From positions 1 through 31,507 of IMG/VR virus record IMGVR_UViG_3300020401_000057: DNA of 31,507 nt; one strand, written 5' to 3'. The position numbers and the translations under genes were made by a program. A model generated the notes under the pieces. That model worked only from the letters and a program-made list of their open reading frames with translations, ran no database searches and had not been told where the DNA came from. Shown here one piece after another: positions 2,895 through 23,455 of this stretch; within the stretch, counting starts at the first letter, position 1; each line of letters begins with the position of its first letter. Origin of the DNA: a virus.

Positions 2895-2922
2895 CTTATT
2901 GTATTACACCTATTTTAAATAA

Positions 2923-6798: not shown

Positions 6799-6822
6799 AA
6801 TTCGAAAGTTTGGAACATTAAT

Positions 6823-6851
6823 ATTATACACATTAAATATACTATTGGCAG
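6823..6851 (-). promoter_or_regulatory. Sigma70-like promoter for the fibre genes
   Basis: On the minus strand CTGCCA (6851-6846) is followed by a 17-base spacer and a perfect TATAAT (6828-6823). Transcription would start near 6816, giving a leader of about 17 bases before the ATG at 6798. The site sits in the 76-base gap between divergent genes. No clear Shine-Dalgarno sequence precedes the fibre ATG. Confidence 0.5.
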
Positions 6852-6874
6852 ATTTTTATTGTGTAAGTAAAATT

Positions 6875-8110
6875 ATGTCTCAAGGGAAAAGGTTACATCT
6901 TAGTTATGAGCGGGTAGTTCTGTTGGCGGATTCTGCGCCAGCTTTTAGAGCACAAGATACTGTTCATAATCCAACATTAATATCTAGAGTACAAGATATA
7001 TCTTATTCTTTTAACTTTAATCCGTTACAATTAAAAGAAATCGGGTCAAGCGAATATATAAAAGATAGAACCCCAGCCGTTGGAGCTGTTGCTATGAAAT
7101 CTAGGATACCTATTCTTTCACAACCCACAGTAGATGTTCAATTTTCATATTTATTTTTTGATGCAGCAAACGAATCAGCTTTGGGTTTTAATGTTGATGG
7201 AGGTTACTTGTTTGAAAACTCAAAACTATATAATAAACCTGATTGGGCAAATTTGGGCGCCTCGGCAGAAGCCAAAAAAGGAGATATAAATTTATACCTA
7301 CTAGCAGAGCAAGCAAATCCTAGAAAAGATATTTTAGGGAGGCAAGATAAAACAGACAATTCTGAATTTGATAAATTAGATTTAATTGGTATAGGTAATT
7401 GTTATCTGTCATCTTATGGTATATCTGCCCAGCTTGGGTCAATGGTTTCTTGTCAGTTGTCTTATAGTTGTAGTAATATATGTATAGATGAATATAATTT
7501 TAATCATTTAAATGATTTTGTTCCCGCTGTAAACAATAAAGGCGAAAGATCAACGTCAATAGTTCAAATACACAAGTCAATACTAAGAAACGGCGCCCTT
7601 GATACTGACAATTCCGAGTCTTCTTTGGCACTGAGGCCTGGAGATATTGAAATTACATGGACAGACAACAAGGCCGACTCTGAAGGAGGTTTTAGTCTTA
7701 TTGATATTGATCCAGAATTAATGTTAATACAATCAATTCAAGTATCATTAGATATAAATAGACAAGATATAAATTGTTTTGGTTCTGATTATATTAAAGA
7801 TAGAAAAATTCAATTTCCTATACTAGGATCTATGTCTGCTAATATTATATTAAGAGACATACAAAAAAATGCAAATAAATCAGAAATATCACAAATATTT
7901 AAAGACGATGTATCTATGGATATAGAAATAAAATTATATAGCAGAACTTCTGCTACTTCTAAAAAACACTATGCCACGGTTAAAATACCCGATGCAAAGC
8001 TAGCTTCTGAGTCTCACTCTATGTCGATAGGCGGTTTTGCTGAAGTGTCTGCAGAATTTCTATTTGAAATTGGCACAAACAGTGGCATGCAAATCATAAA
8101 GCATGTATAA
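6875..8110 (+). CDS. Tail-tube-like protein, paralogue of the major tube protein, 411 aa
   Basis: The first ATG in frame is at 6875 (MSQGKRLHLSYERV); a TTG ten codons upstream is less likely. The protein matches the 559-aa tube protein encoded at 8158-9837 at several landmarks in the same order: RVQDISYSF against RVQSANYSF, a GSM motif, VPAVNNKGERS against VPAVNNERGTP, LRPGDIE in both, and NRQDINCFG against NRQDVNQFG. Each half repeats a similar beta-rich pattern, suggesting two tube-fold domains per chain. It lacks the 164-residue N-terminal extension of the larger protein and is more AT-rich. It is the only plus-strand gene among minus-strand neighbours and has its own terminator. It may be a minor tube, ring or surface protein. 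The paralogy is well supported; the specific role is inference. Confidence 0.7.
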   Translation: MSQGKRLHLSYERVVLLADSAPAFRAQDTVHNPTLISRVQDISYSFNFNPLQLKEIGSSEYIKDRTPAVGAVAMKSRIPILSQPTVDVQFSYLFFDAANESALGFNVDGGYLFENSKLYNKPDWANLGASAEAKKGDINLYLLAEQANPRKDILGRQDKTDNSEFDKLDLIGIGNCYLSSYGISAQLGSMVSCQLSYSCSNICIDEYNFNHLNDFVPAVNNKGERSTSIVQIHKSILRNGALDTDNSESSLALRPGDIEITWTDNKADSEGGFSLIDIDPELMLIQSIQVSLDINRQDINCFGSDYIKDRKIQFPILGSMSANIILRDIQKNANKSEISQIFKDDVSMDIEIKLYSRTSATSKKHYATVKIPDAKLASESHSMSIGGFAEVSAEFLFEIGTNSGMQIIKHV

Positions 8111-8136
8111 AAAAACCCGCCGAAGCGGGTCTTTTT
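8111..8136. terminator. Bidirectional intrinsic terminator
   Basis: A perfect 6-base-pair stem ACCCGC/GCGGGT (8115-8120 and 8125-8130) closes a four-base loop, CGAA on the plus strand and TTCG on the minus strand. A run of A precedes it and CTTTTT follows, so each strand ends in a U-tract. It lies between the converging genes ending at 8110 (+) and 8158 (-) and should stop transcription from both sides. Confidence 0.93.
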
Positions 8137-8157
8137 AAATAATCTATAAGATTAATA

Positions 8158-9837
8158 TTAAGCTGTTGCAGGATCAAACCTTGACAGGAAAGATGATTCA
8201 ACAACCCCTCTTGATCCAGCGACCATAATTCCTCTAGTGGTATCTTCTGGCCCACCAACTTGACATGTAAATGTAATATCTACAGACTTGTTGTCGCCGA
8301 TAGAAGAACTAAAGGATTCTCCTTCAAGCTGAGCACCTTTTACGAAGAACGACATTGCAACCGGACCTTTTCCGTCTGCCTGCGGCTCTCTTAAGATGAA
8401 CTGAAGGTCATGGTTTTCAAAATCAAACAAATGATTCGCTACATTTCCTGAAACCAAGTCAGAAGCAATGGCGCTTACGCTAACACTAACCGTCAAAGGA
8501 AAATCTAGTGGTCGGGTATATGCGTAAGGTGTTCCAAGTCTTTGAAGAGGTGTTCGGGACATAGGAATTTCAATGCTGAAACTTTGAACGTGGCAGCTTC
8601 CTACTTTATGGTCTGTAGGAGGTGTTCCGTCTGGAAGGGTTGTCATCATTGCTGCCCCACCAGCTGTTCCGAGATGCATTTCAATGTCTCCAGGACGCAA
8701 GCAAGACCATCCGTCTGCTTGACTCGAATAAGAGTCTGCGTCACCTAGTGTTGGGTCGCTAGCAGCGTCATTCAAAACACCACTTACTGGTGCAGGAAGG
8801 CTATACTGTATACCCTCAATTGGTGTTCCGCGTTCATTGTTGACCGCAGGAACATCAATATTGTGGAAACCTGCGTCAGATTTCAAATTGAGTCCTTCTA
8901 CTGTTACATTTGCTGTGGGCATGCTTCCAACAGAGGCTTCAACTGAATAATTTGTGACATAACCATTACCCAGAGCAATGGTAGATGCTGTTGTATCGTC
9001 TGAATCTCCGTAAGCGTCGAACACAGAGTTTCCAACAGCGTCAGTTCCTTGAGGTGTGGTAAGAATAAAAAAGTTTCTACCAGCATAGTCATCTTCTTGT
9101 TTGTCTGTTTTGACAAAGTTAACTGCGGTTCCTGCATCAAGGGCGGAATGTTCTTCAACATTAAATCCCATAAGCTTTTCGTTTGCACCATTATTAAGAT
9201 AGTATGAAAAATCCAAACTAACTGTAGGTGGTTCAATTGCGACAGAATCAATTCTGGAAAGCTGTCCGAATTGATTTACGTCTTGCCTGTTGATTGTAAA
9301 ACTGTAGTTGGCGCTCTGTACTCGATTAAGCTGTTTAACCGCAGGAAGAATATCCCAATGTGAAAGGTCAACATTGTTTGATAAATCATAGTTGCCATTA
9401 TCTGTAAACTGTGGAATTGGTGGTACTGCGGCTGCATCTCCAACCAGCGCCGTAAGCGGATGCTTGCCGGTGCTAGCTCCAGAAGCCTCAAAATACCAAT
9501 CTTGTCCACCGTCTGATACTTTTACAATATCTTCATTGGCATAGGTTGCATTTTCATCAAAATCTCCCTTAAAGGGATCAACTGGATCGCCACCTGCATC
9601 TACAAGGTCTGTGGGCTTGGTGATTAATGTCCAGGAATCGGTGTTGTCCAAAATGCATAAGTCTGTATTATTGGCTGGTTCTTTAACCAGGCCCCAAACT
9701 TTACTACTAACCGTTTTTGGAGACGCGCTCGCATCGGTAGCATTATTACTTTTAGCAGTGATGTGGTGGCCTGTAGCTTCAGGCTGTCCCACATACAGCG
9801 CTTCACTCTGATAAATAACTCTATTTCTAGTTGCCAT
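8158..9837 (-). CDS. Probable major tail tube protein, 559 aa
   Basis: Residues from about 171 onward form two similar beta-rich halves. The first starts RVQSANYSFTINRQDVNQFG and the second starts VQSFSIEIPMSRTPLQRLG, consistent with a duplicated tube fold. T5 pb6 is a known case where a duplicated tube domain builds trimeric rings in place of hexamers. Residues 1-170 are an N-terminal extension. It includes a WGLV..DSWTLI segment and a W-Y-GD-V-type module at about 90-164 (NEDIVKV, QDWYFEAS, SHWDILP). The gene is visibly richer in G+C and less biased to AT-ending codons than its neighbours, as expected for an abundant virion protein. It is the last gene of the minus-strand neck-to-tube cluster and ends at the bidirectional terminator. 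No good Shine-Dalgarno is visible before the ATG. The tube assignment rests on fold pattern, paralogues and position. Confidence 0.75.
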   Translation of the reverse strand: MATRNRVIYQSEALYVGQPEATGHHITAKSNNATDASASPKTVSSKVWGLVKEPANNTDLCILDNTDSWTLITKPTDLVDAGGDPVDPFKGDFDENATYANEDIVKVSDGGQDWYFEASGASTGKHPLTALVGDAAAVPPIPQFTDNGNYDLSNNVDLSHWDILPAVKQLNRVQSANYSFTINRQDVNQFGQLSRIDSVAIEPPTVSLDFSYYLNNGANEKLMGFNVEEHSALDAGTAVNFVKTDKQEDDYAGRNFFILTTPQGTDAVGNSVFDAYGDSDDTTASTIALGNGYVTNYSVEASVGSMPTANVTVEGLNLKSDAGFHNIDVPAVNNERGTPIEGIQYSLPAPVSGVLNDAASDPTLGDADSYSSQADGWSCLRPGDIEMHLGTAGGAAMMTTLPDGTPPTDHKVGSCHVQSFSIEIPMSRTPLQRLGTPYAYTRPLDFPLTVSVSVSAIASDLVSGNVANHLFDFENHDLQFILREPQADGKGPVAMSFFVKGAQLEGESFSSSIGDNKSVDITFTCQVGGPEDTTRGIMVAGSRGVVESSFLSRFDPATA

Positions 9838-9889
9838 AATAATAAGTATTCTTTTGTTTATTACATTTAATTTTTAAAAAAGTGAAATT

Positions 9890-10918
9890 TTAAATTCTTG
9901 GGTAGCGGTATGTGTTGATTTCAAAATCAATAAATCCTACAAATGTATTGGGACTAATTGTTTTTGTGACTCTGTCGCTTAATTTAGATACATCCACTCT
10001 GTCAATATGGTGAACTGCTGTTGGATTAATATTTGTTCTATGTTGTGCTAGATCATCATAATTAAAATTAAATGCGTCACCAAATTCATTTAAAGGGTAG
10101 TCTTCGAATGATAACGCAGCAAAGCATAATTTGCTTGCGTCATTAAATATAGAAAGGACGGCATCGAGTTGGTAAATATTTTCCGCCATAACTACGCACC
10201 TAATGTCTCCGATTGTTTTTTCTTCGCCGCCTAGAGAGAATGGGTCGTTTGTGCTTCTGATGTTATTTATAAAAATGGCGGGAAGAACCTGATCATAAGG
10301 GGGTATCGGTGTTAGGGTTTGATCGAATCTACTGTTTACATCAAACTTAGACTCCACAATTAAATTTTCTTCCGTTTCGTTTGTTACGTATATATTAAAA
10401 TCTTTTACGGCATAATCTATAGATACTGTTGAGCTTGACGAAGCCGCAGAACTAATTACCCTGCCGTTAACATAATCAACAAAAAGTATTTCTCCAGCTT
10501 GGCTTGTTGTTGTCCACGTAATGTCTTCCCATTTGCTTGACACTCCAGGCTCTTCTGCGACATCTGTATACTCCATAGCTCTCCATGAAGCGGATGAGTG
10601 GGAAACCATTTCTCTGGGAGCGTAACCCTTTGTTATATCCCAGCTTGATAGTGTGCTTGGATCTATGCCTCCAGATTTAGGTTGAGCCACCCCGTCTATT
10701 GTAACTTCAAAGGGTATGCTTGCCCCTGTAATGCTTTTATCAAAAACCCATTGCTTGTAAGGGCTAGAAAAGCTTTTAAGACTCGCATCTAATCTATCAT
10801 CGGTAATTAATGTAAGAGGATCTGTTTTATTAGAATAAGCCTCGCCTTTTTTGAGCAAAAAGTTTTCAAACCATAAGGAAAAGCTCGTAGTAATTTCATG
10901 CTGGAATTGAGGTTTCAT
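9890..10918 (-). CDS. Neck-proximal virion structural protein, 342 aa
   Basis: The protein begins MKPQFQHEITTSFSLWFENF and has an SSPYKQWVFD segment near residue 55. A W-Y-V-W module occupies about residues 85-134 (LSSWDITKGY, SASWRAMEY, SSKWEDIT). The remaining two thirds look beta-rich and soluble, with PAIFINNIRSTNDPFSLGG in the middle and an FINTYRYP-like end (FEINTYRYPRI). No signal peptide or membrane segment is visible. The ATG overlaps the stop of the upstream gene (ATGA), so the two are translationally coupled. It lies between two connector-type genes and the tube gene, so a tail-terminator, neck or tube-cap role is plausible. I do not recognise a named family with certainty. Confidence 0.6.
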   Translation of the reverse strand: MKPQFQHEITTSFSLWFENFLLKKGEAYSNKTDPLTLITDDRLDASLKSFSSPYKQWVFDKSITGASIPFEVTIDGVAQPKSGGIDPSTLSSWDITKGYAPREMVSHSSASWRAMEYTDVAEEPGVSSKWEDITWTTTSQAGEILFVDYVNGRVISSAASSSSTVSIDYAVKDFNIYVTNETEENLIVESKFDVNSRFDQTLTPIPPYDQVLPAIFINNIRSTNDPFSLGGEEKTIGDIRCVVMAENIYQLDAVLSIFNDASKLCFAALSFEDYPLNEFGDAFNFNYDDLAQHRTNINPTAVHHIDRVDVSKLSDRVTKTISPNTFVGFIDFEINTYRYPRI

Positions 10919-11496
10919 AATGTAAGTCCGTAAGATAGTAGTCTTTTTTTGAAGTCGTTAATAATTGTAGATATATAAGAGGTGTTTCTAAATACACCTC
11001 CAGAGGAATGTTTTGCTTGAAAACCTTCGCCCGATCTACTTGATGGAGATTCTATATCTATATAGTTGCCCATTCCAGATATACCCTGCTCTATAGCCTT
11101 GACCCAGCTTCTGCCCGAGGCCCAAGGTAAGGGTGTTGCATCATAAATATCATCTTTGGTGGGAATGTTTACAATATATTTTCTGCGACCATTTCGCTTA
11201 TCATTGTTTGTAAACCTTATATTAATAGAGCGTTCTAAGAACTGACGCAAGCTTTCTGCTGGAGAGTCCGTAGACTCAAACCCTAAAAATCCGAACAAAG
11301 TTCCTTTGGTCACAAGGCCGCTATTAGATTCATTATTTAAATCTCTGGTGACGGGGTGCATATCATAATCCATGAAAAGCTTTTTCTTTGCACCGTCAAA
11401 ATGTTTAAATACTAGCTCATCAAATTGTTTTTCAACAATCTTGCTATTTAATAATTGTGATTTTAAAGTATTGCGTAATGCGTATACAGAAATCAT
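10915..11496 (-). CDS. Neck / tail-completion candidate, 193 aa
   Basis: A 193-residue soluble protein beginning MISVYALRNTLKSQLLNSKI. A helical N-terminus is followed by TLFGFLGFESTDSP and by a C-terminal half with PWASGRSWVKAIEQGISGMG and a final helix IINDFKKRLLSYGLTL. The size, a charged helix near the end and the position between a connector-like protein and the tube gene resemble the HK97 gp10 / tail-completion class. The sequence alone does not prove this. Both ends overlap neighbours by 4 bases (ATGA), giving tight translational coupling. Function is assigned by context only. Confidence 0.55.
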   Translation of the reverse strand: MISVYALRNTLKSQLLNSKIVEKQFDELVFKHFDGAKKKLFMDYDMHPVTRDLNNESNSGLVTKGTLFGFLGFESTDSPAESLRQFLERSINIRFTNNDKRNGRRKYIVNIPTKDDIYDATPLPWASGRSWVKAIEQGISGMGNYIDIESPSSRSGEGFQAKHSSGGVFRNTSYISTIINDFKKRLLSYGLTL

Positions 11497-11951
11497 TTCG
11501 CTTCAACTGGTTTTAGATACAATGTATAAAAATTAACATCAAATAATCCGTGCGCTCTTGGATCTGAGTCAACCATAAACATTCTTTCATCAAATTCAAT
11601 TCTTTTTAAATCTTTTATTTGCATGTAATCTTCTTTTTTTAATTTAATTCTTACTCTGCTATTTGAATCAACTCGTTTTACTTTTGTGCTTGTACCAAAT
11701 TCTCCGAAATATTCTGTGTCTCTGTTATCATCATATAGAATGCGCGCTTTGAATACAAACTTTTGAGGAACATTTTGTACGCTCGCTGCGCCGCCTGTAT
11801 TATTATATATGTAATTGTAATTGGGGTCTGTGTTGATAATTACTTTTTTTGCTTCTTTGTATACAACTATATCTCGCGCAAATGTATCATGAATATGCTC
11901 GAACTGTTTTGCAAAAGCCTGCTTTGCGAAATCTGAAATAAAACTTGCCAT
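11493..11951 (-). CDS. Head-tail connector-like protein, 152 aa
   Basis: I take the ATG at 11951 (MASFISDFAKQAFAKQF); a TTG 12 codons upstream would run through the divergent promoter region. A short N-terminal helix is followed by a predicted beta-rich body: DIVVYKEAKKVII, KFVFKARILYDD, RVRIKLKKEDYMQIKDLKRIEF, RMFMVDSDPRAHGLF and FYTLYLKPVE. Small beta-barrel proteins of this length at the head of a neck-tail cluster are often head-closure or tail-adaptor proteins, which is my inference here. It is the first gene of the minus-strand cluster and overlaps the next by 4 bases. No strong Shine-Dalgarno is visible. Confidence 0.55.
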   Translation of the reverse strand: MASFISDFAKQAFAKQFEHIHDTFARDIVVYKEAKKVIINTDPNYNYIYNNTGGAASVQNVPQKFVFKARILYDDNRDTEYFGEFGTSTKVKRVDSNSRVRIKLKKEDYMQIKDLKRIEFDERMFMVDSDPRAHGLFDVNFYTLYLKPVEAK

Positions 11952-12004
11952 AATTAATTCTACACTAAATAATAATAGGTGTATCAACTATTAGGAATAA
12001 GGTT
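11945..12004 (+). promoter_or_regulatory. Divergent intergenic region with promoter for the main tail operon
   Basis: TTGCCA (11945-11950), a 17-base spacer and AATAAT (11968-11973) form a sigma70-like promoter on the plus strand. It would start near 11980, giving a leader of about 25 bases. AGGA at 11993-11996 lies 8 bases from the ATG at 12005 and serves as ribosome binding site. The -35 overlaps the start codon of the minus-strand gene. The 10-mer AATAGGTGTA at 11974-11983 recurs in the gap between the two fibre genes (2905-2914, minus strand). The gap separates the neck/tube half of the tail programme from the ruler/tip half. Confidence 0.4.
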
Positions 12005-12007
12005 ATG
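11993..12007 (+). repeat. Duplicated translation start, copy 1
   Basis: AGGAATAAGGTTATG, containing the ribosome binding site and ATG of the 95-aa gene, is identical to 12305-12319 in front of the next gene. The AGGA is 8 bases from the ATG. Confidence 0.8.
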
Positions 12008-12292
12008 GAAGCAGGAAATATTTTTCGCAAATATTGCGAGAGGAATACTAAATCTTTGTTTAAAGGTTTTCTAATGATGTTAGAAGATTTAAACGAAGAA
12101 CATAGAATTCATTTTGGTAAACTTAAACAAAATTTACCAGAGGAATATCGTGCGCTAATTGATCAAGCGGATTATTTTGATCAAGACAAACTGCAACACT
12201 TAAGAAAAAGAACTCTAGACATAGGTAACGAAGCGATCCGCAATATAGAAGGTGATTTGCAAAATTTTACTATAGATTTTGAGTTCAAATGA
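12005..12292 (+). CDS. Small hypothetical protein, first gene of the tail operon, 95 aa
   Basis: A 95-residue, mostly helical, charged protein beginning MEAGNIFRKYCERNTKSLFKGF. It has no signal peptide, membrane segment or recognisable catalytic motif. Features include an LMMLEDLNEEHRIHF segment, an ADYFDQDKLQHLRKR segment and an acidic beta-like end (NFTIDFEFK). It is preceded by a good ribosome binding site and followed after 24 bases by the next gene, whose start carries the same 15-base leader. Position suggests a role in tail assembly, perhaps as a chaperone partner, but I do not recognise the family. Confidence 0.65.
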   Translation: MEAGNIFRKYCERNTKSLFKGFLMMLEDLNEEHRIHFGKLKQNLPEEYRALIDQADYFDQDKLQHLRKRTLDIGNEAIRNIEGDLQNFTIDFEFK

Positions 12293-12304
12293 ATATAATA
12301 AGAA

Positions 12305-12319
12305 AGGAATAAGGTTATG
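12305..12319 (+). repeat. Duplicated translation start, copy 2
   Basis: Identical 15 bases (AGGAATAAGGTTATG) to 11993-12007, again placing AGGA 8 bases before an ATG. A TATAAT lies just upstream at 12294-12299, but without a convincing -35 at 16-18 bases. Confidence 0.8.
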
Positions 12320-13135
12320 CAATTATTGGAAAGAGAAAAACAAGAAAAAGAAGAAGGGGATGTAGTTTCTTCTTTGAAGGAGGTCTATAGTTTTACTGTA
12401 GAGCAAACTGAAAAAGTAAAAGTTACTGAAGTTGAGTCTAGGAAAGACAAAGACGGTAACGAGGAAGAGGTTGAGGTTACCAAAGAGGTTGACCAAGCTG
12501 TTCCCTACAGAATCATCATAAAGCAGCCTAATCGACGCGAAATGGAAGAAGCTGAGCTTGAGTATAGCATTGAAATGAGTAACTGCGTTAAGCAAGGTAT
12601 TCTGACTAAAGCTATGCTTGCAAAAAAGTATTCTGACAGCGGAGGTTTGATGCCAGAAGAAGACGCTCAAGCACTCACAAGACTGTACATGAAGTTTGGA
12701 GAATACAGTAATGAACTTGGCAGGCTAAATACTAAGTCAGCTAAAACAAAAAAGGATGAAGACCGAGTTAGGGAATTATCTGGCAAGCTTGGTGAAGCGA
12801 GAAAAGAAATTGTAAATGTTGAAACAAATTATGCATCTCTATTTAATCACACCGCAGACTCTAGAGCAGCCAATAAAGCTGTTACTTGGTACTTGTTAAA
12901 TTTATCTTACATTAGAAAAGATTCTGAAGAAGAAGCGTCCCCAATTTTTAAGGGAGAAACTTTTGAAGATAAGATTGATGAGTATTACAGGTTAGAAGAA
13001 GAAGGTAGTGAAATATACTATACAATCTCTAATAAGCTCGCCACATATGTAAGTTACTGGTATTACAGCGCTGGTGCTGTTTTGGCCGCCGACTTCGAGA
13101 AGCTTCAAGAAGACATCGATAACGGAGAGATCTAA
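12317..13135 (+). CDS. Putative tail assembly chaperone (gpG-position), 272 aa
   Basis: A highly charged soluble protein. The N-terminus (about 1-65) is rich in K and E and has alternating strands (KVKVTEVESRKDKDG, EVEVTKEVDQAVPYRIIIK). It is followed by helical segments including REMEEAELEYSIEMSNCVKQG, a coiled-coil-like stretch around 130-170 and an aromatic C-terminal helix (NKLATYVSYWYYSAGAV). It sits two genes before the tape measure, where long-tailed phages keep their tail assembly chaperones (lambda G/GT). The next gene starts on the last base of its stop (TAATG), so the two are coupled. I see no slippery heptamer at the junction, so separate initiation seems to replace the lambda-type frameshift. 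Assignment is by position and composition. Confidence 0.55.
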   Translation: MQLLEREKQEKEEGDVVSSLKEVYSFTVEQTEKVKVTEVESRKDKDGNEEEVEVTKEVDQAVPYRIIIKQPNRREMEEAELEYSIEMSNCVKQGILTKAMLAKKYSDSGGLMPEEDAQALTRLYMKFGEYSNELGRLNTKSAKTKKDEDRVRELSGKLGEARKEIVNVETNYASLFNHTADSRAANKAVTWYLLNLSYIRKDSEEEASPIFKGETFEDKIDEYYRLEEEGSEIYYTISNKLATYVSYWYYSAGAVLAADFEKLQEDIDNGEI

Positions 13136-14121
13136 TGTCCAGCGCCACTGAACACCGAAAGGCGTTTAGGGATGTCGTTAGGGGATACTCATCTGCCGTA
13201 TTTGATGATGGTCTTGTATACATAAGACACTTAACTCCTCATGATCAAGTTGAGCTTGAGGACATAACTGACTTGTATATAGAACGAGCAAAAAAACGAG
13301 GACTTCCTACTAATCAAGACATGATGGATCTTCTTGAAAAAGAAGGCGATTGGACTCAAAAAGATGAACGGGATGTAGAAAAGCTACAAGCATTTATAGA
13401 AACTCTACAAATCTCCAAAAAGAAACTAGTAATAAAATCTGCAATAGATAAGCAGAATGAAATTATTGAGCAAGAGCAAGAGAAACTAAACGTAAAGCTT
13501 TTGCAAAAAGATAATCTTATTGGTAATACTTGTGAAAAGTACGCAGCACAACGCACAAACGATTTTTATATATTAAAAAGTTTTTATAAAAATGAAAGTT
13601 TTGATGCTCCTTTATATACTGAAGCTGAATATGATGAACTTGATTCAAGAAAAATAGCAGAATTAATTAAAATATATAATGATACATTTCATTTTTTTAG
13701 TGAAGATAGTATACAATATTTAATACTAGAAGATTTTTATCAACCATATTTAAATTTTGCTGATGATAGTATGCAATTTTATGGTAAAGCATTTTGTTCA
13801 TTAACATATAATCAAATTAGAATGATTGTATATACTAGAATATTTAAAAATATATTTGAAAATAATGAAAATATCCCTGAGAAAATAAGAAAAGATCCAA
13901 AAGCGTTATTAGACTTTGGTAGCACTTCAAGCGAGGAGCGAGAAAAAATGAAATCTAGATTTGAAGATAGCGATGGATCTACAATTGTTGGCGCAAAGGA
14001 TGAAGACTATGAATATCTTGGCATTCAAAAGCCTGCTGGCGGAATTGATTTGCATAAAGAGGCGCAAAAGAAGGGTGGTTCTTTGAGCATGCAAGATATG
14101 ATGAAGCTTTCTGGAGTTTAG
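13135..14121 (+). CDS. Putative second tail assembly chaperone (gpT-position), 328 aa
   Basis: Begins MSSATEHRKAFRDVVRGYSS, with GGAGAG as ribosome binding site inside the upstream gene. The protein is hydrophilic, with a long helical or coiled-coil stretch at about residues 60-130 (QISKKKLVIKSAIDKQNEII and following). A tyrosine/phenylalanine-rich middle spans about 145-245. The C-terminus contains KDPKALLDFGS and ends SLSMQDMMKLSGV. Bases 13560-13880, encoding the middle part, are markedly richer in A+T than both flanks. The gene directly precedes the tape measure with a 39-base gap, so it probably helps load or fold the tape measure during tail assembly. No family was recognised with certainty. 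Confidence 0.55.
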   Translation: MSSATEHRKAFRDVVRGYSSAVFDDGLVYIRHLTPHDQVELEDITDLYIERAKKRGLPTNQDMMDLLEKEGDWTQKDERDVEKLQAFIETLQISKKKLVIKSAIDKQNEIIEQEQEKLNVKLLQKDNLIGNTCEKYAAQRTNDFYILKSFYKNESFDAPLYTEAEYDELDSRKIAELIKIYNDTFHFFSEDSIQYLILEDFYQPYLNFADDSMQFYGKAFCSLTYNQIRMIVYTRIFKNIFENNENIPEKIRKDPKALLDFGSTSSEEREKMKSRFEDSDGSTIVGAKDEDYEYLGIQKPAGGIDLHKEAQKKGGSLSMQDMMKLSGV

Positions 14122-14141
14122 AATATAAAATACGTGTAATA

Positions 14142-14159
14142 CCTTGTCAAGGAACAAGG
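14142..14159 (+). promoter_or_regulatory. Short hairpin over the tape-measure ribosome binding site
   Basis: CCTTG at 14142-14146 can pair with CAAGG at 14155-14159 (loop of 8 bases), right up to the ATG at 14161. CAAGG also occurs at 14148-14152. The ribosome binding site AAGGAA (14149-14154) lies inside this structure. A modest translational control of the tape measure is possible; the stem is only 5 base pairs. Confidence 0.35.
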
Positions 14160-14160
14160 C

Positions 14161-17100: not shown

Positions 17101-20100
17101 CGAGTTGGGTCACACAGAGCATTAGTTGGCAGAAGCAACCCTATGGGACTGGGAGTTACAAATACTGATGACGAGCCGGGCGGATTAAAAGATTTATTTG
17201 GAGCAAAAGGGTTTGTGCCTAATTATGCTTTAGGTGATATGTTAAAAATGGGCACCCAGGAATCTATTGATAATGCTAATGAACAAGTTGATAAACTTTC
17301 GATGGAGTACGATGATTTGAGAAGCGAAATTAAAGAGGCTAAAAGAATCCAAGAAGAAGCTAATGCAGCAAGTAAAGAAAATCAAAATGAGGTCGACGAG
17401 TATACAAAAGCAATAGAAAAAGACAAGGAAGAATTAAAAAGAAAACGAAAAGGTTCTAAAAGATACAACGAACTTCAAAATAGAATTAATAATACCACCC
17501 AAAAATTAGATGCAGCTAATAATAAACTTACCGCGTCCAAAGATAGATCAAGCGCTGCGACCAATAGAGTTTCAACTGCAGAAAATAAATTAAAAACAAC
17601 TTCAGATAAACTTGCAACCGCAAGAAGAGGCGCCACAAGGCAAACCAGGGCCGGATCTATGAGGAGTGCTGCACCTATGGCTCTTGCGATGGGGCTACCA
17701 ATGGTGTCTGGTATGATTTCTCAGGCAGCTGGAGAAAACAAAACTGGACAAGGAATTGCGGGTGGTCTAACTGGGGCTGCAACAGGAGCCATGATGGGCA
17801 GTATGATTCTACCCGGAGTAGGAACTGCAATCGGCACGGTAGTCGGAGCGCTAGCGGGCGCAGTCAGTTCATATAACCAAGCATCAAAGGCTGCGGACGA
17901 AAAGAAAAAAGCAGACGAAGCGGCGGCTGAAGCTGCGAGAAAAAATGCGCAAGCATTTAATGAAAATTCATTCGCCCAAACAGCAGCTAAAGCTGCTGCG
18001 ACTAACACTCTATTGAAAAACTTTTCTGGAGGTAACGGAGGAATAGGAGCTTTAGGTCTTAATAATAATTTTTCGCTTAATGTTGCAAGCGGAGAAATAA
18101 GTCAAAATGGGTTTCCAACACCATATACGGGGCTTTCACTAAAACAAGCGGCGGCACGAGAAGCTGCATACGAAAAAAATATTTTGAGCGATAGAAGTAT
18201 ACATAAAAGCTTAATAGACTTATCTGATGTTGAAAAAGGAGGGCCAGGAAATGGGATGAGATCAAACATAGAAAAAATATATGGATTCAGCAAGCAAACA
18301 AAACAACAAAATTTCAAAAAAGACATGACTAGAGCTGCAATAGATATTGTTAACAGTGGGTCACAGGGCAATGAATCGGCAATTGAAAATTTAAGAAAAA
18401 AGTATCCTTATAAACAAAAAGAAATTGATGACTTTTCAAAAATGAGTCGGGGAGAGATGGAAATGATGTCACTGCTAGACTCAACCACAAGTGTGAGCGG
18501 CGCAGGCAAAACCGACCTGGAAGCTCTGTTGAATGGCACCATAAAAACCGATAATTCTGCAATCAAAAACGCCGAAGAGGTCGCTCGAAAATTGCAAAAC
18601 GAAATAGTAGCTAATTTATATGGTACTGGAAAAGAAGCTGATAGAGTTCATACCACAACTATTGCGAATACAAAAACTAAAGACGGAAAGCCTGTTACTG
18701 AGCATCGTGAAGTAAAGATGACTGGAAAAGATATGGCAATTTTGCAAAGAGGAGGAAAAGAAAGTTTAGAGCTCGGAAGAAAACTAGGCATGACTGAAAA
18801 GGATATAGAAACCTTTAAAAATGGTCAGCTATTGGCAGTTAAACAACAGTCTCAAATTATACAAGATCAAACAAATGCATTTATTAAAACTTTAAACTTT
18901 CAAAGTATAGAACTTAAAGTTAGACATGATTTAAACAAAAGCCTTCAATCTCAAGCTCATTCCGCAACAGAATTGTCAAATAAAAATAAAGCTTTATCTG
19001 CAATCATGGGAAAAAATTTGAAAGAAGCAACAAGGGTCAGCATGCAAACCGAAGAACAAAGATTGGCGATTAAAAATCAGAGATCTAAATCGGATTTAAC
19101 TGCCGAATCAGATTTTAGATCAGGGTTATTTAAATCAATCTCTGGGAATACTGTGGCTTCAGATCAATTTAGAACAGTTTTTGGAGCAGATCAAAAAGAA
19201 GATGGCACTATAGAGTTTAAGAATAATGCAGGTCTAAAACAATTATTTACAGGGTTAGGCAAAAATGCTGGTACTCCAAAATTTCTTGAAAAACAATACA
19301 ACAAATACATAAACACCGCAGAAAGTGATGGCGTAGAAAGCGCGTTATCAGGAATAGATATAAAGGTATTGAAAGCTATGGTGGAGCAAGAAGATGGAAT
19401 ACTTAAAAATAATGCAGCATTAAGAAGACAATTGGAGGGATTAATTCTAAAAAGAGAAAACGCTTTAGAGCTTTCTAAGAAAGATTTTGATTTTTCAGAT
19501 CAACAATTAACCATTATAAGTAAAATAAACTCAGATCTGGCAAAACAGTCTGATATCAGAAAAGATATATCAGATAGAATTGATATTGACTCAAAAAAGT
19601 TAGCGTCACAAGTGGCTATCGCGCAAAAGACTTTAGAAATAGAAAAGTTAAGAAGGCAAGTTGCTCAAGGCCCTGGATATCAAACTGCATCTGTAACTGC
19701 AAGCAACCAATTGCAAGATATTGATGAAACATTTAATATTCAAGAGCTTGCCATGCGTGGAGAAAACAATATACAAAGAAGAAGTTACGAAAACGAAATT
19801 CTTAATCCACTTAAATCTAAACTACGTTCAAAATCTGAAATGCTGTCAAATCCTAAAAACACCCCAGAACAATCGAAAGTTCTAAGAGAACAATATACAA
19901 AAATTTCAAAAGATATTCGAAAAGCAGAAGAATCACAAGCTATAATCGTAGCACAGCAAGAATCAGAAATTGAGAATTTAATAAAAATGCGCGATCTAAG
20001 AAAAGAAATGATAAAAGACGAATTAAATGCTAGGGGTAGTTTCTCAGCAGGCATGAATGAATCTCTTAGAAAAATGTCTGATGAATCTAGTGACTTTTAT

Positions 20101-21495
20101 AATAATTTGGGGCAAATGATTCCAAATGCTTTTGCGAATAATTTGAGCAACGCAATGACCAATGCAATTAAACAAGGAGGAAGCTTAAAAGATTCTTTGA
20201 AAGATGCAGCTTTATCATTTTTACAAACCATGAATCAAGCGTTCGCGCAACAATTCGCAAGAAACGCTACTCTTGCTATATTTGGTAGCGGCGAGGAAAA
20301 ATTTAGAGGGGGATTGGTAAAAAGAAATAAAGGTGGACTTGTTCCTGGTATGCTTACTAACGGAGAATACAGAATGAATCCAGGCGCAGTTTCTAAATAC
20401 GGGGTTAGTATGATGGATTCTCTAAATGCAGGACACCTACCTAAAAGAAATTCTGGAGGAATGATGAGTTCACTTGTGGGTTTTGGAGTTACAGCTGGAC
20501 TGCAAAGTTTATTTAAAAAGAAAGAAGAGCCAAAGCACGAAGTAAGAAAAAAGGATCGATTTGAAACTGACGGAGCATTTAAAAAACATAATATGTCCGC
20601 TCATTATATGCAAAATAATTCTAGAGCTCAAGCATACGTTGATGAACTTAGACAACAAAAAGCAGAACAAACTAGAAAGTTTATAGAAAAAGCTGAAAAA
20701 CGAGCTCAAAGAGGTCGCGCAATTACTCAATTTATTGGCAACATGGCAATGGGTAAGCTAGGTAAACATCTCGAAAAATCAGGAGCATTCGCTAGGGCCG
20801 ATATAGCTTTAGGCCAAGGCACAGAAATTAGCACTGCAGATGGATTAAAAGGAATTATGGCTCCAGGCGGTAAAATTAAGCTCACCGAAGATATCCCATT
20901 TGGGCCTGCTGGAGTTGGAAAGGCAGGAGACGTAATGGACATTAAAAAGCTAAAAAGTTTTGGTTATAAATTTGGAAAAGGGAATGTTGATAGGGTTGCT
21001 GGTGGCGACCACGGTTGGTGGTCAAATGCCGCACAGTCAATAGGAAGCTTTGGAGAAAAATCCATGGGCATGGCAAGAAAATTTGGCTACAAAAATTCTG
21101 GAGGATCAGTTACAGGACCTTCTGGTATAGATAGAATACCAACAATGTTAAGTGAAGGAGAATATGTTATTCGAGCAGATGCAGCAAGAAAAATTGGAAG
21201 GCCTGCTTTAGAAAAAATCAACTCAGGAAGATATAATTCAGGGGGAATTGTAGCAAGCAATTCTTCTGGTCTTGATGGCGCATCGCCACAATCTGGAGGA
21301 GTAAATAATATATCCATAACAGTAAATGTTGATGGTTCGGGCGGACAATCAGGAGAAAAGAAAGATAACGATAGCAACGGAGATAAAAAGGATAAGATGG
21401 ATAAAATGTCTGCTAAAATTAAAGACCAAGTTGTCACAGTAATTAAAGAAGAAAGTCGCCCTGGAGGTCTACTCGATAAGGGAGGTGACGGATGA
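14161..21495 (+). CDS. Tail tape measure protein, 2444 aa
   Basis: The tape measure sets tail length and fills the tube before DNA passage. Residues about 50-360 resemble the TP901-type tape-measure core (AFGASVGIINAVADAFKG, TARGGAVIGNSFKTIFTRVQ). A hydrophobic stretch lies near 420-450. Four G[FY][IV]PN[YF] motifs lie at residues 543, 627, 954 and 1017. Between the second and third is a block with a nuclease-like pattern E849, D878, E900-x-K902. A coiled coil spans about 1028-1155, a glycine zipper (GIAGGLTGAATGAMMGSM) about 1196-1240, and long helices about 1450-1950. Two copies of the GG..LxxGEYxxxxxAxxxxG motif (2058-2090 and 2314-2357) and a final RPGGLL complete the typical C-terminus. 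At about 1.5 angstrom per residue the upper bound on tail length is roughly 365 nm; folded insertions would shorten it. Start supported by AAGGAACAAGG; the stop overlaps the next ATG. Confidence 0.95.
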   Translation: MSINIDVQGNTTPLERDVQAAVKRINRSGGVKIRIDEKGVTQPLGNMKRSADEFTKSLEASNARVLAFGASVGIINAVADAFKGLVTSTMKVEKNLTDINVVMGLTNKQLDKFGGGLFKVAKETGAGFDAASEAATEFARQGLSVNETLKRTKDALILTRLTGMKAAESVKSLTAAMNTFKGEISDSTKLVSKFAAVDVKFAVSAEDFAQAIARSGQAARDAGVDLNDLIGLVTAVQERTARGGAVIGNSFKTIFTRVQRSSTLNELENIGIAVRDISGNTLPAIRILESLAKKYDHLNDAQRAYISQNVAGVFQVNILKAALSDLSKANSVTAQATKIASNATDESSRKNEQLRETMSALAGETGVAVQQLAKTIGDIALAPGINKILDGIKGLAEGATNLLGNGEDQGNTFAKGVLKGIGNIITGPGLVVIGALFTKLFVNAAKYATSSLSSLLNMNKAAAGRKSIETSLMQVLTQNAALQQEMLRTDISREQKEKTILNLIKQQTTEAARLASITKSMTPSLMRQGVGPNLSYSRRGAYGFIPNYAKDDQEKKMARSAGYTPGHIKTMNIPGAGGMIYNSSETVKNFPGLSQPAIMPPASSKAGENYKKIFASTHGFDPYAAQGYIPNFSLVGALQRFAAGGGKLTGLATSKHHHGNSLEGALINEWKASGRSQSNLNKGSIDAFITANAGKFDNKTDLVSYKGHLSRGRAVGRAERGITNINAGGSSFVVLTADEQADNPNQHMFANRSGQIGGSKGTATTKILKKPAAYKIATPLYGMGPGEEKKMQAKKSRSIQNELQDYMTNGAIDLATDIMGKPIKPINKSHIESSLNKGAVSAAAGGIFESGIASIMDKVESEGLFQNYMARTDTSAIDLPASPQLYELFGVKNKGQAGAEAKISMSEPNIKSSAKKFLDILGPKSKDAFAYADSNYKESEKFRRMRQPGRAAAGYIPNYDDPLTASIKREKSAGVPVSKIRVGSHRALVGRSNPMGLGVTNTDDEPGGLKDLFGAKGFVPNYALGDMLKMGTQESIDNANEQVDKLSMEYDDLRSEIKEAKRIQEEANAASKENQNEVDEYTKAIEKDKEELKRKRKGSKRYNELQNRINNTTQKLDAANNKLTASKDRSSAATNRVSTAENKLKTTSDKLATARRGATRQTRAGSMRSAAPMALAMGLPMVSGMISQAAGENKTGQGIAGGLTGAATGAMMGSMILPGVGTAIGTVVGALAGAVSSYNQASKAADEKKKADEAAAEAARKNAQAFNENSFAQTAAKAAATNTLLKNFSGGNGGIGALGLNNNFSLNVASGEISQNGFPTPYTGLSLKQAAAREAAYEKNILSDRSIHKSLIDLSDVEKGGPGNGMRSNIEKIYGFSKQTKQQNFKKDMTRAAIDIVNSGSQGNESAIENLRKKYPYKQKEIDDFSKMSRGEMEMMSLLDSTTSVSGAGKTDLEALLNGTIKTDNSAIKNAEEVARKLQNEIVANLYGTGKEADRVHTTTIANTKTKDGKPVTEHREVKMTGKDMAILQRGGKESLELGRKLGMTEKDIETFKNGQLLAVKQQSQIIQDQTNAFIKTLNFQSIELKVRHDLNKSLQSQAHSATELSNKNKALSAIMGKNLKEATRVSMQTEEQRLAIKNQRSKSDLTAESDFRSGLFKSISGNTVASDQFRTVFGADQKEDGTIEFKNNAGLKQLFTGLGKNAGTPKFLEKQYNKYINTAESDGVESALSGIDIKVLKAMVEQEDGILKNNAALRRQLEGLILKRENALELSKKDFDFSDQQLTIISKINSDLAKQSDIRKDISDRIDIDSKKLASQVAIAQKTLEIEKLRRQVAQGPGYQTASVTASNQLQDIDETFNIQELAMRGENNIQRRSYENEILNPLKSKLRSKSEMLSNPKNTPEQSKVLREQYTKISKDIRKAEESQAIIVAQQESEIENLIKMRDLRKEMIKDELNARGSFSAGMNESLRKMSDESSDFYNNLGQMIPNAFANNLSNAMTNAIKQGGSLKDSLKDAALSFLQTMNQAFAQQFARNATLAIFGSGEEKFRGGLVKRNKGGLVPGMLTNGEYRMNPGAVSKYGVSMMDSLNAGHLPKRNSGGMMSSLVGFGVTAGLQSLFKKKEEPKHEVRKKDRFETDGAFKKHNMSAHYMQNNSRAQAYVDELRQQKAEQTRKFIEKAEKRAQRGRAITQFIGNMAMGKLGKHLEKSGAFARADIALGQGTEISTADGLKGIMAPGGKIKLTEDIPFGPAGVGKAGDVMDIKKLKSFGYKFGKGNVDRVAGGDHGWWSNAAQSIGSFGEKSMGMARKFGYKNSGGSVTGPSGIDRIPTMLSEGEYVIRADAARKIGRPALEKINSGRYNSGGIVASNSSGLDGASPQSGGVNNISITVNVDGSGGQSGEKKDNDSNGDKKDKMDKMSAKIKDQVVTVIKEESRPGGLLDKGGDG
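16147..16870 (+). other. Nuclease-like block embedded in the tape measure
   Basis: Within tape-measure residues about 660-905, between two GYIPN motifs. The stretch GGIFESGIASIM places a glutamate at 849, AIDLPASPQLYEL an aspartate at 878, and AEAKIS the pair E900-x-K902. The order E ... D-(21)-E-x-K is the classical PD-(D/E)XK nuclease signature. A preceding stretch (HHHGNSLEGALINEW, E663) has a similar opening and may be a second, diverged or scrambled unit. This is a motif-level observation only; the fold is not proven. Confidence 0.4.
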
Positions 21496-22520
21496 GTTTT
21501 TCAAGTTACGAACAAGAATTTGTTATAAACGATCAAATTATAAGCGGTATTTCTTCTGCTTCTATTTCTTATGGATCAAGCGTAGAGCCTTTGTATCTTG
21601 CTGGAATAGGATACATAGACAGTTTCATTAATGGACCAGTAGAAGGCGACCTATCTATTACAAGATACATGCTTGGGCCGGATATTCTTGCAGATAAACG
21701 TGATAATCAAGATCTTACTGGGGGATTTGTTCTTGGAGAAGGAGTTCAAGAAGCAGGTTTTACAAAAGGGCGCGTTATATCTAGAAAAGTTTCTTGTAAT
21801 ATAGGAGAAATTCCAGCCATAGATAATACAATAAGAATTTACGGTAACTTTGGCGGAGGAATTCCAGCAATAACTGGGAGCTATACCGACTCTCAGGGTA
21901 ATCCAATTAGTTCTTATGAAGGTGTTAAAGTAAACCAAGAAGACAGAGAGTATATAATTCCTACTCAAGGTAGTATTGCTGTTGAAATCGGAGGAAACGA
22001 TTATGATATTCTTGGTTTTGCTATCGATAGAACTTTAACAGTCGAGGCTTTATATGCTCTTAATAAAGAACACATTAATTCATTAAAAAATTATGAAGCA
22101 CATGATATACAAATTATATATCCTATAGAAACAAAATTAGATTTTACTATTTCGCAAGAAGATTATAATATATTACAAATGAGAGAGCTGATGGATTATG
22201 ATTCAATTCAATCTAGCGTAGAAAATTTAAATGTTAAAATATATGATCCACAAACAATGGATGATCCAACTCCGCGTGTAATTAATGAATACAATATTGT
22301 TGGCGCGAAACTTTCTTCTGTCAATCAAAGCTCCGCAACAGAGCAAGAAACTACTGTCGCTCTAAGTTTTGTAGGATTCGAAACCGATCCGAGGACACCA
22401 GACACATACCCAACTGAACAAACCACGCCAACACCGAGCTACGGAACAGATGCCACGGGAGATTTTATAACCGCAGAAGAACAGGCTAATTCTGATGAAA
22501 GGATGTTTGGTGGGCTATGA
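21492..22520 (+). CDS. Tail tube/ring-like protein near the tail tip, 342 aa
   Basis: Starts on the stop of the tape measure (ATGA) with GGAGGTGA as a strong ribosome binding site. The protein is beta-rich with no membrane segment. The first half has ISGISSASISYGSSVEPLY and GPVEGDLSITRYM; the second half, GFAIDRTLTVEALYAL, NYEAHDIQIIYPIETKLDFT and IVGAKLSSVNQSSATEQETT. Both halves fit the two-domain tube-like pattern also seen in the 411- and 559-aa proteins and in the next gene. The C-terminus (about 295-342) is a low-complexity T/P/D-rich tail. Placed between ruler and tip proteins, it likely forms a ring at the distal tube end, comparable in position to a distal tail protein. The fold assignment is inference. 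Confidence 0.55.
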   Translation: MSFSSYEQEFVINDQIISGISSASISYGSSVEPLYLAGIGYIDSFINGPVEGDLSITRYMLGPDILADKRDNQDLTGGFVLGEGVQEAGFTKGRVISRKVSCNIGEIPAIDNTIRIYGNFGGGIPAITGSYTDSQGNPISSYEGVKVNQEDREYIIPTQGSIAVEIGGNDYDILGFAIDRTLTVEALYALNKEHINSLKNYEAHDIQIIYPIETKLDFTISQEDYNILQMRELMDYDSIQSSVENLNVKIYDPQTMDDPTPRVINEYNIVGAKLSSVNQSSATEQETTVALSFVGFETDPRTPDTYPTEQTTPTPSYGTDATGDFITAEEQANSDERMFGGL

Positions 22521-23455
22521 GCGAGTTTACTAGTTTTAACAGATGCCTGATTGAACTCGGGGATCAACAAATATTTGCTACATCTGCAAGCTTAAACATT
22601 GCACCATCACTAAAACGCGATGTAAGGTTTGATGGATTTAGTCTTACTGATGCTGGGGCTACGGTAAATGACCCAACTTTTGTACCAACAGGGCCGCTAA
22701 AGGGTTCGTTGTCTTTTGAATTTATAGTTGCTGATCAACATTTTAATCCAATACAAACCATATTTGATATTAGCGAAAATATGAAAGAAAGCCCTATAAC
22801 TATGGGTAGAATAGGTCAATACAGATTTTGGACGGCGTATCTGTCTAACTTTTCTTTTACTATGGAGCCATTTCAGTTAATTAAAGCTAAAGCAGAATAC
22901 GAAATATTTGGAACAATACATGAAATTGGCGACAAAAAACTAGCAGAAGTTCCAGATATTAATCCTGCAGAAAGTTTAAAAAGCTACGGAGAAATAGTTG
23001 CTTCGGGTATAGATCTTCAAGATGAGAATAATAAATTTGATTTAAGAATGCTTAGTGTTGAATACAGTGCAAAAGCTTCTAGGAAGACAACATACACAAT
23101 TAGAATGAATGAACATAGAGCATCGCTACTTTCATCGGGAGGTTTGCTTCCTTACAGGAGCGCAATAAATAGTATAGAAATTAATTGCAACATAAAGTCT
23201 AATAAAATAATTAACTATGTAAATCATATGGGCGAAATACAAATGAAAAATCCTTCTGAAATACCACAAAACGTTGCTGTTGACTTGCACCTATATGGCG
23301 CTAAGAAAATAGATGTTCCAGGTGGTAATCCAGATCGTCAATCTCCGCACATAGCGACATTTAGTTGTATAGGTAAAGTGATGTCTCAGAGTTTAGAGGT
23401 TTCTACAGGAGGGTATCTTAGTGGTAATTTTCAGGTATCACAGGTAATTAGATAA
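22517..23455 (+). CDS. Tail tube/ring-like protein, second copy, 312 aa
   Basis: Overlaps the upstream stop by 4 bases (ATGA). Beta-rich, with two comparable halves. The first has FATSASLNIAPSLKRDVRFDG followed by LKGSLSFEFIVADQ. The second has LRMLSVEYSAKASRKTTYTI followed by SINSIEINCNIKS-type strands (AINSIEINCNIKSNKIINYV) and a closing SGNFQVSQVIR. The pattern of an opening strand, a long loop and a paired-strand sheet is shared with the preceding 342-aa protein and with the tube proteins. It directly precedes the gpM-like gene, so a tail-tip ring or adaptor between tube and tip is likely. No catalytic motif is seen. Exact counterpart in lambda is uncertain. Confidence 0.55.
   Translation: MSEFTSFNRCLIELGDQQIFATSASLNIAPSLKRDVRFDGFSLTDAGATVNDPTFVPTGPLKGSLSFEFIVADQHFNPIQTIFDISENMKESPITMGRIGQYRFWTAYLSNFSFTMEPFQLIKAKAEYEIFGTIHEIGDKKLAEVPDINPAESLKSYGEIVASGIDLQDENNKFDLRMLSVEYSAKASRKTTYTIRMNEHRASLLSSGGLLPYRSAINSIEINCNIKSNKIINYVNHMGEIQMKNPSEIPQNVAVDLHLYGAKKIDVPGGNPDRQSPHIATFSCIGKVMSQSLEVSTGGYLSGNFQVSQVIR

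Follow-up and report, generated by a model that had tools for sequence, protein, structure and literature searches.

Four paralogous two-domain tube-like proteins and a double gpM protein point to threefold rings in a siphophage-type tail module

A 31,507-base virus record (IMGVR_UViG_3300020401_000057, taken at full length and called the window below) carries, by Pfam matches and gene order, a siphophage-type tail module with a tape measure gene, tube-like genes, gpM, gpL and a JAB-domain protein. Within this module, four tube-like proteins, P0001, P0002, P0003 and P0004, are one paralogous set, and the gene next after P0004 encodes a distal tail protein in which two gpM domains are fused. 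The best overall explanation, which we consider likely, is a tail of paired-domain trimer rings made from paralogous two-domain chains together with the double gpM protein. The first-pass annotation of this DNA had named four two-domain tube-like proteins, and all four open reading frames (ORFs) were confirmed at the places it gave, its 411 amino acids (aa) for P0001 being the length from the ATG at 6875. That reading of four proteins stood, but it had overlooked a fifth case of the same kind, the duplicated and fused gpM of the next gene.

P0001 and P0002 are 25% identical over 401 columns (E 3e-21). An iterative P0003 profile took in the P0001/P0002 set, and the cross-family links were re-measured with separated family alignments (78 rows for P0002, 39 for P0001, 34 for P0003 and 33 for P0004) and reversed controls. 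Full-length hhalign probabilities were 100% for P0002-P0001, 98.15% for P0002-P0003 (292 columns), 96.5% for P0001-P0003 and 90.45% for P0003-P0004 (257 columns), with 16 full-length column-reversed controls reaching at most 2.7%. Hidden Markov model searches returned the same chain of family links, and reversed ORFs gave no match at E up to 10. Among known tube families, PF18906 (Phage_tube_2) matched P0003 at 25.7 bits (E 1e-5), under the 27-bit cut-off, and had no match at E 0.01 among 65 P0002-family or 36 P0004-family members; one of the 65 P0002-family members weakly matched PF09393, another tube family (E 0.0075).

AlphaFold2 monomer models were obtained for P0002 (65 sequences; predicted local distance difference test score (pLDDT) 70.3, predicted template modelling score (pTM) 0.72) and P0004 (36 sequences; pLDDT 76.1, pTM 0.75). 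A Foldseek comparison placed P0002 nearest to 8xan (E 1e-11), 7qg9_G (2e-10) and the P74-26 chain 8ed0 (5e-10), and P0004 nearest to 7qg9_G (298 aa, E 1.4e-9). We identify 7qg9_G, a chain of a T5 tip entry, with T5 p140 by its 298 residues, the length of the T5 product encoded beside pb6, and treat 9ioz_A (T5 tip, 293 residues) likewise. In VIA-align, P0002 matched P74-26 8ed0 at Z 20.1 (303 residues, 8..546), the T5 tube 9iny at Z 19.9 and 8xan at Z 19.3, three scores tied within 1, and 9ioz_A at Z 17.0; P0004 matched 8ed0 at Z 17.3 (266 residues, model 5..312), 8xan at 16.8, 9iny at 16.4 and 9ioz_A at 14.9. For these monomer models a single alignment spans both domains of the T5 and P74-26 chains, with a root-mean-square deviation (rmsd) of 3.5-5.0 Å over 232-312 residues. 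One-domain tubes scored far under the two-domain chains, at Z ~6-9 and over half a chain only. Taken alone, the P0002 halves matched lambda gpV on 5..328 (Z 8.3) and Hcp on 380..541 (Z 9.4), whereas the one-domain matches of P0004 lay mostly in half 1, so that its half 2 is assigned a tube fold from the whole-length matches. P0002 and P0004 are each predicted to consist of two tandem tube-fold domains, placed by these fits roughly as in the known trimers, and P0001 and P0003 would have two tube domains by profile homology to P0002. As a statement about fold, the earlier claim that each protein has two halves of similar beta pattern thus holds, by models for P0002 and P0004 and by homology for P0001 and P0003. 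A tube fold for the second half, checked in two of the four, is likewise supported (P0002 residues ~380-546 against Hcp tubes at Z ~9; P0004 aligned to residue 312), and so is the T5 principle of a fused two-domain chain in a putatively trimeric ring, by predicted structure for two proteins and by homology for two.

The sequences of the halves suggest an old fusion. P0001 retains an internal repeat, half 1 against half 2 giving z 4.3 as single sequences (2 of 500 shuffles as high). Between proteins, local profile probabilities of half 1 against half 1 were 99.9% for P0002/P0001, 92% for P0003/P0004 and 84% for P0002/P0003, and lower for P0001/P0004 (28%), P0001/P0003 (24%) and P0002/P0004 (18%). 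Second halves gave 99% for P0002/P0001, 98% for P0002/P0003 and 96% for P0001/P0003, and that of P0004 gave 14% with P0003, 3% with P0002 and 0.3% with P0001. Half 1 against half 2 gave 36% in one comparison (P0002/P0003) and no more than 10.4% in the others, within or between proteins; the six highest-scoring of 64 column-reversed half controls lay at 2.5-4.6%. Because the strong half links run like with like, the best explanation is a single fusion that probably predates the split of the paralogs; the sequence of the second half of P0004 does not speak to the point. Among 197 distinct whole homologous ORFs (a further 41, truncated at a locus end, were excluded), 192 have a half 1 match ahead of a half 2 match. 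In three others the edges of the two matches overlap, and the last two show half 1 alone in 291 and 296 aa, a length that would accommodate two domains. A tube from unfused relatives was considered and rejected, none of the 197 whole ORFs being of one-domain length.

The distal tail protein repeats the pattern at the next level. PF05939 (Phage_min_tail) matched the whole 1328-aa protein at 70.6 bits (cut-off 39) in two stretches, which correspond to gpM domains that are 30% identical to each other (E 5e-11); the ~75 residues between them probably form an external module. PF05939 was present, at E up to 0.01, in 41 of 50 related records. In 40 of these 41, gpM was fused in one ORF in 35 (307 to >1000 aa), lay in two adjacent ORFs in one and was single in four (G049, G050, G051 and G056, one domain in ~200 aa); these records are partly near-copies (G029/G030, G041/G043) and do not count as independent events. 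The fused forms include nine compact ORFs of 307-338 aa, with 33-34 residues between the domains, and G045, where two separate profile matches make up the second domain. The separate adjacent ORFs (G035, locus L207) are 197 and 177 aa long with one domain each, and this split pair is a possible alternating hetero-hexamer.

In a tree of 74 gpM domains, all 34 first copies grouped together (support 91/86, recovered in 95% of 200 bootstrap trees), whereas the second copies did not group (three changes); near these, with weak support, lay the single copies. The tree tentatively fits one duplication, with the single forms ancestral or reduced; it is tentative because it has 133 columns, long branches and an unsettled bootstrap. 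Among cultured GenBank phages, the two-gpM query matched 131 records, in none of which one place covered 80% of the query, and the 40 of the 131 matches listed all covered the second domain only; the compact fused query had no match in cultured phages. With two gpM domains in one polypeptide, the gpM ring of the window is probably of three chains.

These findings can be set against known stoichiometries. The T5 tube protein pb6 is described as a product of duplication and fusion whose ring is a pseudo-hexameric trimer (PMC5717097), the P74-26 tube protein as a two-domain trimer from an ancient duplication (PMC10034513) and T5 p140 as a tube paralog in a tip ring that carries the collar; in the accessible text of a 2021 review, phiCbK is the only threefold tube named besides T5 (PMC8718954). 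Lambda has six copies of gpM, three of gpL and three of gpJ (PMC11101478). As ratios of tail tube protein (TTP) to distal ring to hub, most reported siphophages are given as 6:6:3 (PMC13252515) and HFTV1 as 6:3:3, its pseudo-hexameric connector counted as the distal ring (PMC12494034), and T5 is 3:6:3.

Taking these observations together, we propose that the four paralogs descend from one two-domain tube protein, which had itself arisen when a one-domain tube protein was duplicated and fused, and that each chain would fill two neighbouring ring positions, three chains making a ring of sixfold appearance. P0002, probably the major tail tube protein judging from a gene order that puts it next to small genes of neck type, an arrangement shared with the related record L094, would be stacked around the tape measure, and P0001, encoded beside it, would be a tube variant. 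P0003 and P0004 may form specialised tip-end rings that separate gpM from the last tube ring, like T5 p140, and perhaps anchor side fibres; this placement is suggested by their genes, which lie between those of the tape measure and gpM, and from the p140-like chain that is the best Foldseek match of P0004. The two-gpM polypeptide would then build the distal ring from three chains instead of the six of lambda, together with a three-copy hub of the gpL homologue and a candidate gpJ, named by position alone. From tube to hub, three chains per ring would be the rule, and the usual change from six to three at the distal ring would vanish. We lean, with less assurance than for the paired-domain rings as such, towards a tail in which tube, extra tip rings and gpM ring are all threefold (TTP:distal:hub 3:3:3), in a lineage that has kept single gpM, two adjacent gpM genes and fused gpM as successive steps, a joint judgement on both points; the trimer stoichiometry, the order of the rings and the role of each paralog are inferred throughout. 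The head end may stay sixfold, since the T5 tail terminator is hexameric even on a trimeric tube (PMC11784142), and a 193-aa protein of the window, if it is the terminator, would perhaps still form a six-copy ring.

Among known tails, T5 (also DT57C) is one of the closest in plan, pb6 and p140 sharing with the window two tube domains per chain, outer decoration and, as proposed here, a further ring of two-domain chains past the end of the tube. T5, however, has two such paralogs and the window four; its distal ring protein pb9 is a one-domain hexamer, whereas gpM is doubled here, and pb9 had no match to the window profiles; its decoration is a C-terminal immunoglobulin-like domain, that of P0002 probably an insert in domain 1; and its p140 gene adjoins pb6 before the tape measure, a place like that of P0001, whereas the genes of P0003 and P0004 follow the tape measure. 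P0001, P0003 and P0004 are all candidates for the counterpart of p140. P74-26, whose tube chain 8ed0 is the best VIA-align match of both models, though tied within 1 with the T5 and SH-Ab15497 chains, has a two-domain trimer, with only one such protein discussed in the accessible text of PMC10034513 as against four here. The major tail protein of SH-Ab15497 (8xan) is the best Foldseek match of P0002 and scores well in VIA-align with both models (Z 19.3 and 16.8). The HFTV1 connector (9fkb_BA, taken as the connector; Z 10.4 with P0002 and 9.9 with P0004) is a duplicated-domain pseudo-hexameric trimer at the distal end, but the HFTV1 tube is hexameric and passes from six to three at the tube/connector junction, whereas for the window we propose a tube that is already threefold. 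Lambda gpM (8iyk) belongs to the same PF05939 family and has the same gene order, M, L, JAB protein and then a frame in the place of J, but is a 109-aa chain in six copies, whereas the window has two gpM domains in one 1328-aa chain.

Several results weigh against paired-domain trimer rings. P0004 is tied by sequence to P0003 alone, its full-length hhalign probability being 1% with P0002 and 5% with P0001, and even with P0003 its second half reaches just 14%. The alignment of the two halves foreseen by the first-pass annotation succeeded in P0001 but stayed at chance level, judged by shuffles, in P0002 (z 1.3), P0003 (z 1.0) and P0004 (z 1.1), and half-half profile probabilities within a protein were weak (1.5% for P0002, 10.4% for P0001, 10.2% for P0003 and 0.2% for P0004), so that the claim of two like halves is settled by the structure models and would not stand on sequence by itself. 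T5 pb6 and p140 gave 0.05-0.42% in hhalign against all four families, yet pb6 and p140 themselves gave 0.21%. Both models are of moderate confidence, and their Foldseek superpositions are loose (for P0004, template modelling score (TM) by query 0.49-0.57 and rmsd 6.4-9.5 Å in the nine best; for P0002, TM by target 0.40-0.62 and rmsd 6.4-11.1 Å in the eleven best), so that the angle between the domains is just roughly that of the known trimers. The copy number is predicted from monomer folds and homology, and the proposed gpM trimer from sequence.

The chance-level similarity of halves in three of the four proteins is what one would expect if the halves were unrelated beta domains, for example tube plus decoration, in ordinary hexameric rings. 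We regard this as very improbable, and for P0002 and P0004 it is contradicted, because each half of P0002 alone matches one-domain tube folds and P0004 aligns with two-domain tubes through residue 312. A second alternative, which we judge quite unlikely, is that P0002 alone builds the tube and that P0001, P0003 or P0004 are spare or variant copies, decoration or assembly proteins of the same fold. It would account for the two or three tandem tube-type copies in four related loci (L069, L091, L100 and L106) and for the many related loci, some ending close to the tube gene, in which a P0001-type gene was not seen. It fits poorly with the occurrence of P0003 homologues in 33 and of P0004 homologues in 32 of the 50 related records (searched at E up to 1, the poorest best match having E 6.5e-4; the P0003 count includes a match of just 27 residues in G036), with their adjacency in 21 of these records (G007-G023, G025 and G053-G055), and with T5 p140, a documented ring of the same fold.

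A third alternative accepts paired-domain trimers for the tube and extra rings and gives the double gpM protein six copies in two stacked hexameric rings. The ~75-residue spacer means that the two gpM domains need not be ring neighbours, and the record with two separate gpM genes is compatible with two different homo-hexameric rings. We nevertheless judge this arrangement unlikely, if somewhat less so than the preceding one, since the nine compact fused forms leave just 33-34 residues between the domains and the known tube-domain fusions (T5 pb6, P74-26 and the HFTV1 connector) hold both domains in one ring. A three-chain gpM ring together with paired-domain tube rings remains our preferred reading.

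Two-domain trimeric tubes are already known; the set of four paralogs and its combination with a fused gpM appear to be new. By sequence, the P0001/P0002 profile had no match in the PDB at E up to 10, and the rows returned for P0003 (three, E ~0.5) and P0004 (two Rab-family, best E 0.017) were taken as chance. With tblastn against GenBank phages, P0002, P0003 and P0004 had no match (E up to 0.1), nor had a compact tube relative from L094 (E up to 0.01), and PHROGs held no credible match for the four proteins (best E 0.056). In open-licence PMC papers, we found no report of a fused gpM together with a two-domain tube. An IMG/VR scan yielded 216 stretches encoding a P0001/P0002 relative, of which 80 were examined. 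Contigs that carry IMG/VR relatives reach 211 kb. The P0004 model matched 57 predicted viral structures at E up to 0.001; of the 50 listed, 40 are 260-410 aa long and one, of 140 aa, has room for a single domain only. Both counts suggest that chains with two tube domains are more widespread than one would expect from the few phages reported to have threefold tubes (T5, phiCbK and P74-26). T5 and HFTV1 each fuse one level, and fusions at both levels here, along with four fused tube paralogs, would mean, if true, that threefold rings can replace a sixfold ring ring by ring; the series of single, split and fused gpM offers natural material for asking why, be it tape measure matching, decoration at alternate positions or tip signalling.

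The tube chains also vary in their outer parts and number. The probable decoration insert of P0002 has pLDDT <50 over most of its length, and relatives of 368-371 aa are too short to hold it. Short chitin-binding-like modules seem scattered over tube domains, the stretch between the gpM domains and fibre proteins, at 9364-9738, 23455-25200, 27443-28480, 2926-6831 and 9890-10918 of the window and as an insert in the P0001-type protein of L004 and in the P0003-type protein of L023. Residues 90-145 of a 342-aa minus-strand protein share 42% over 57 residues with the L004 insert (E 1.6e-8), and PF02839 matched weakly, under cut-off, in a 1302-aa protein (E 2.5e-4) and in gpL (0.04); the remaining places were recognised by eye. 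This is possibly a mobile decoration module. The tandem paralogs of L069, L091, L100 and L106 make tubes of mixed composition, or tail segments that differ, possible.

Coordinates of the tube-like genes, the gpM domains and other tail features in the window
Feature	Position	Strand	Details
P0001, second tube-type paralog, 421 aa (TTG start) or 411 aa (ATG start, 6875)	6845..8110	+	half 1 ~6845-7630, half 2 ~7631-8107
P0002, probable major tail tube protein, 559 aa	8158..9837	-	half 1 ~residues 1-375, half 2 ~376-559
Probable decoration insert, P0002 domain 1 (residues ~34-158)	9364..9738	-	pLDDT <50 over most
193-aa small gene near tube gene	10915..11496	-	possible tail terminator by position; homologue and place kept in L094
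Tape measure protein, 2444 aa	14161..21495	+	PF10145 E 1.1e-26; annotated tape measure proteins also match by tblastn
P0003, two-domain tube-like ring protein (putative), 342 aa	21492..22520	+	just 3' of tape measure gene; half 1 ~21492-21962, half 2 ~21963-22517
P0004, two-domain tube-like ring protein (putative), 312 aa	22517..23455	+	half 1 ~22517-22996, half 2 ~22997-23452
Distal tail protein, fused, both gpM domains, 1328 aa	23455..27441	+	gene next after P0004
gpM domain 1 (residues ~379-508)	24589..24978	+	own M profile E 1e-31
gpM domain 2 (residues ~583-690)	25201..25524	+	lambda tail tip protein M 8iyk_M phmmer E 1.2e-7; own profile E 3e-35
gpL homologue, 345 aa, hub component	27443..28480	+	PF05100 E 1.4e-45
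JAB-domain protein, 134 aa	tail module		PF14464
Open frame where lambda has gpJ, 893 aa			named by position alone; without Pfam match

A contractile tail was considered and rejected: Pfam matches of 16 window proteins include no sheath, and the tip genes M and L are lambda-like; the record being a fragment, this is an inference from the genes it covers. No tRNA genes were detected in the window, and the 193-aa protein had no family match in Pfam or PHROGs. On the far side of the tape measure gene lie genes of 272 and 328 aa and, on the minus strand, genes of 164, 193 and 342 aa and then P0002. Past P0002 comes P0001, on the plus strand, the two genes being convergent. L094 has a run on one strand of the 164-193-342 homologues, a 367-aa tube gene and the 272-328 homologues, at 27-33% identity to the window genes (E 4e-11 to 7e-55). 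From there to the end of that locus no stop-bounded ORF of at least 100 aa was found downstream, and by our own reading the locus ends in a long open frame, the tape measure. In the window, P0002 and its small neck-type neighbours thus stand on the strand opposite the tape measure gene, whereas their L094 homologues are all on one strand. Upstream of its tail genes, L094 also encodes a 1050-aa RCC1-repeat protein (21 PF00415 stretches; 951-4103) and a sulfotransferase-like protein (5172-5957).

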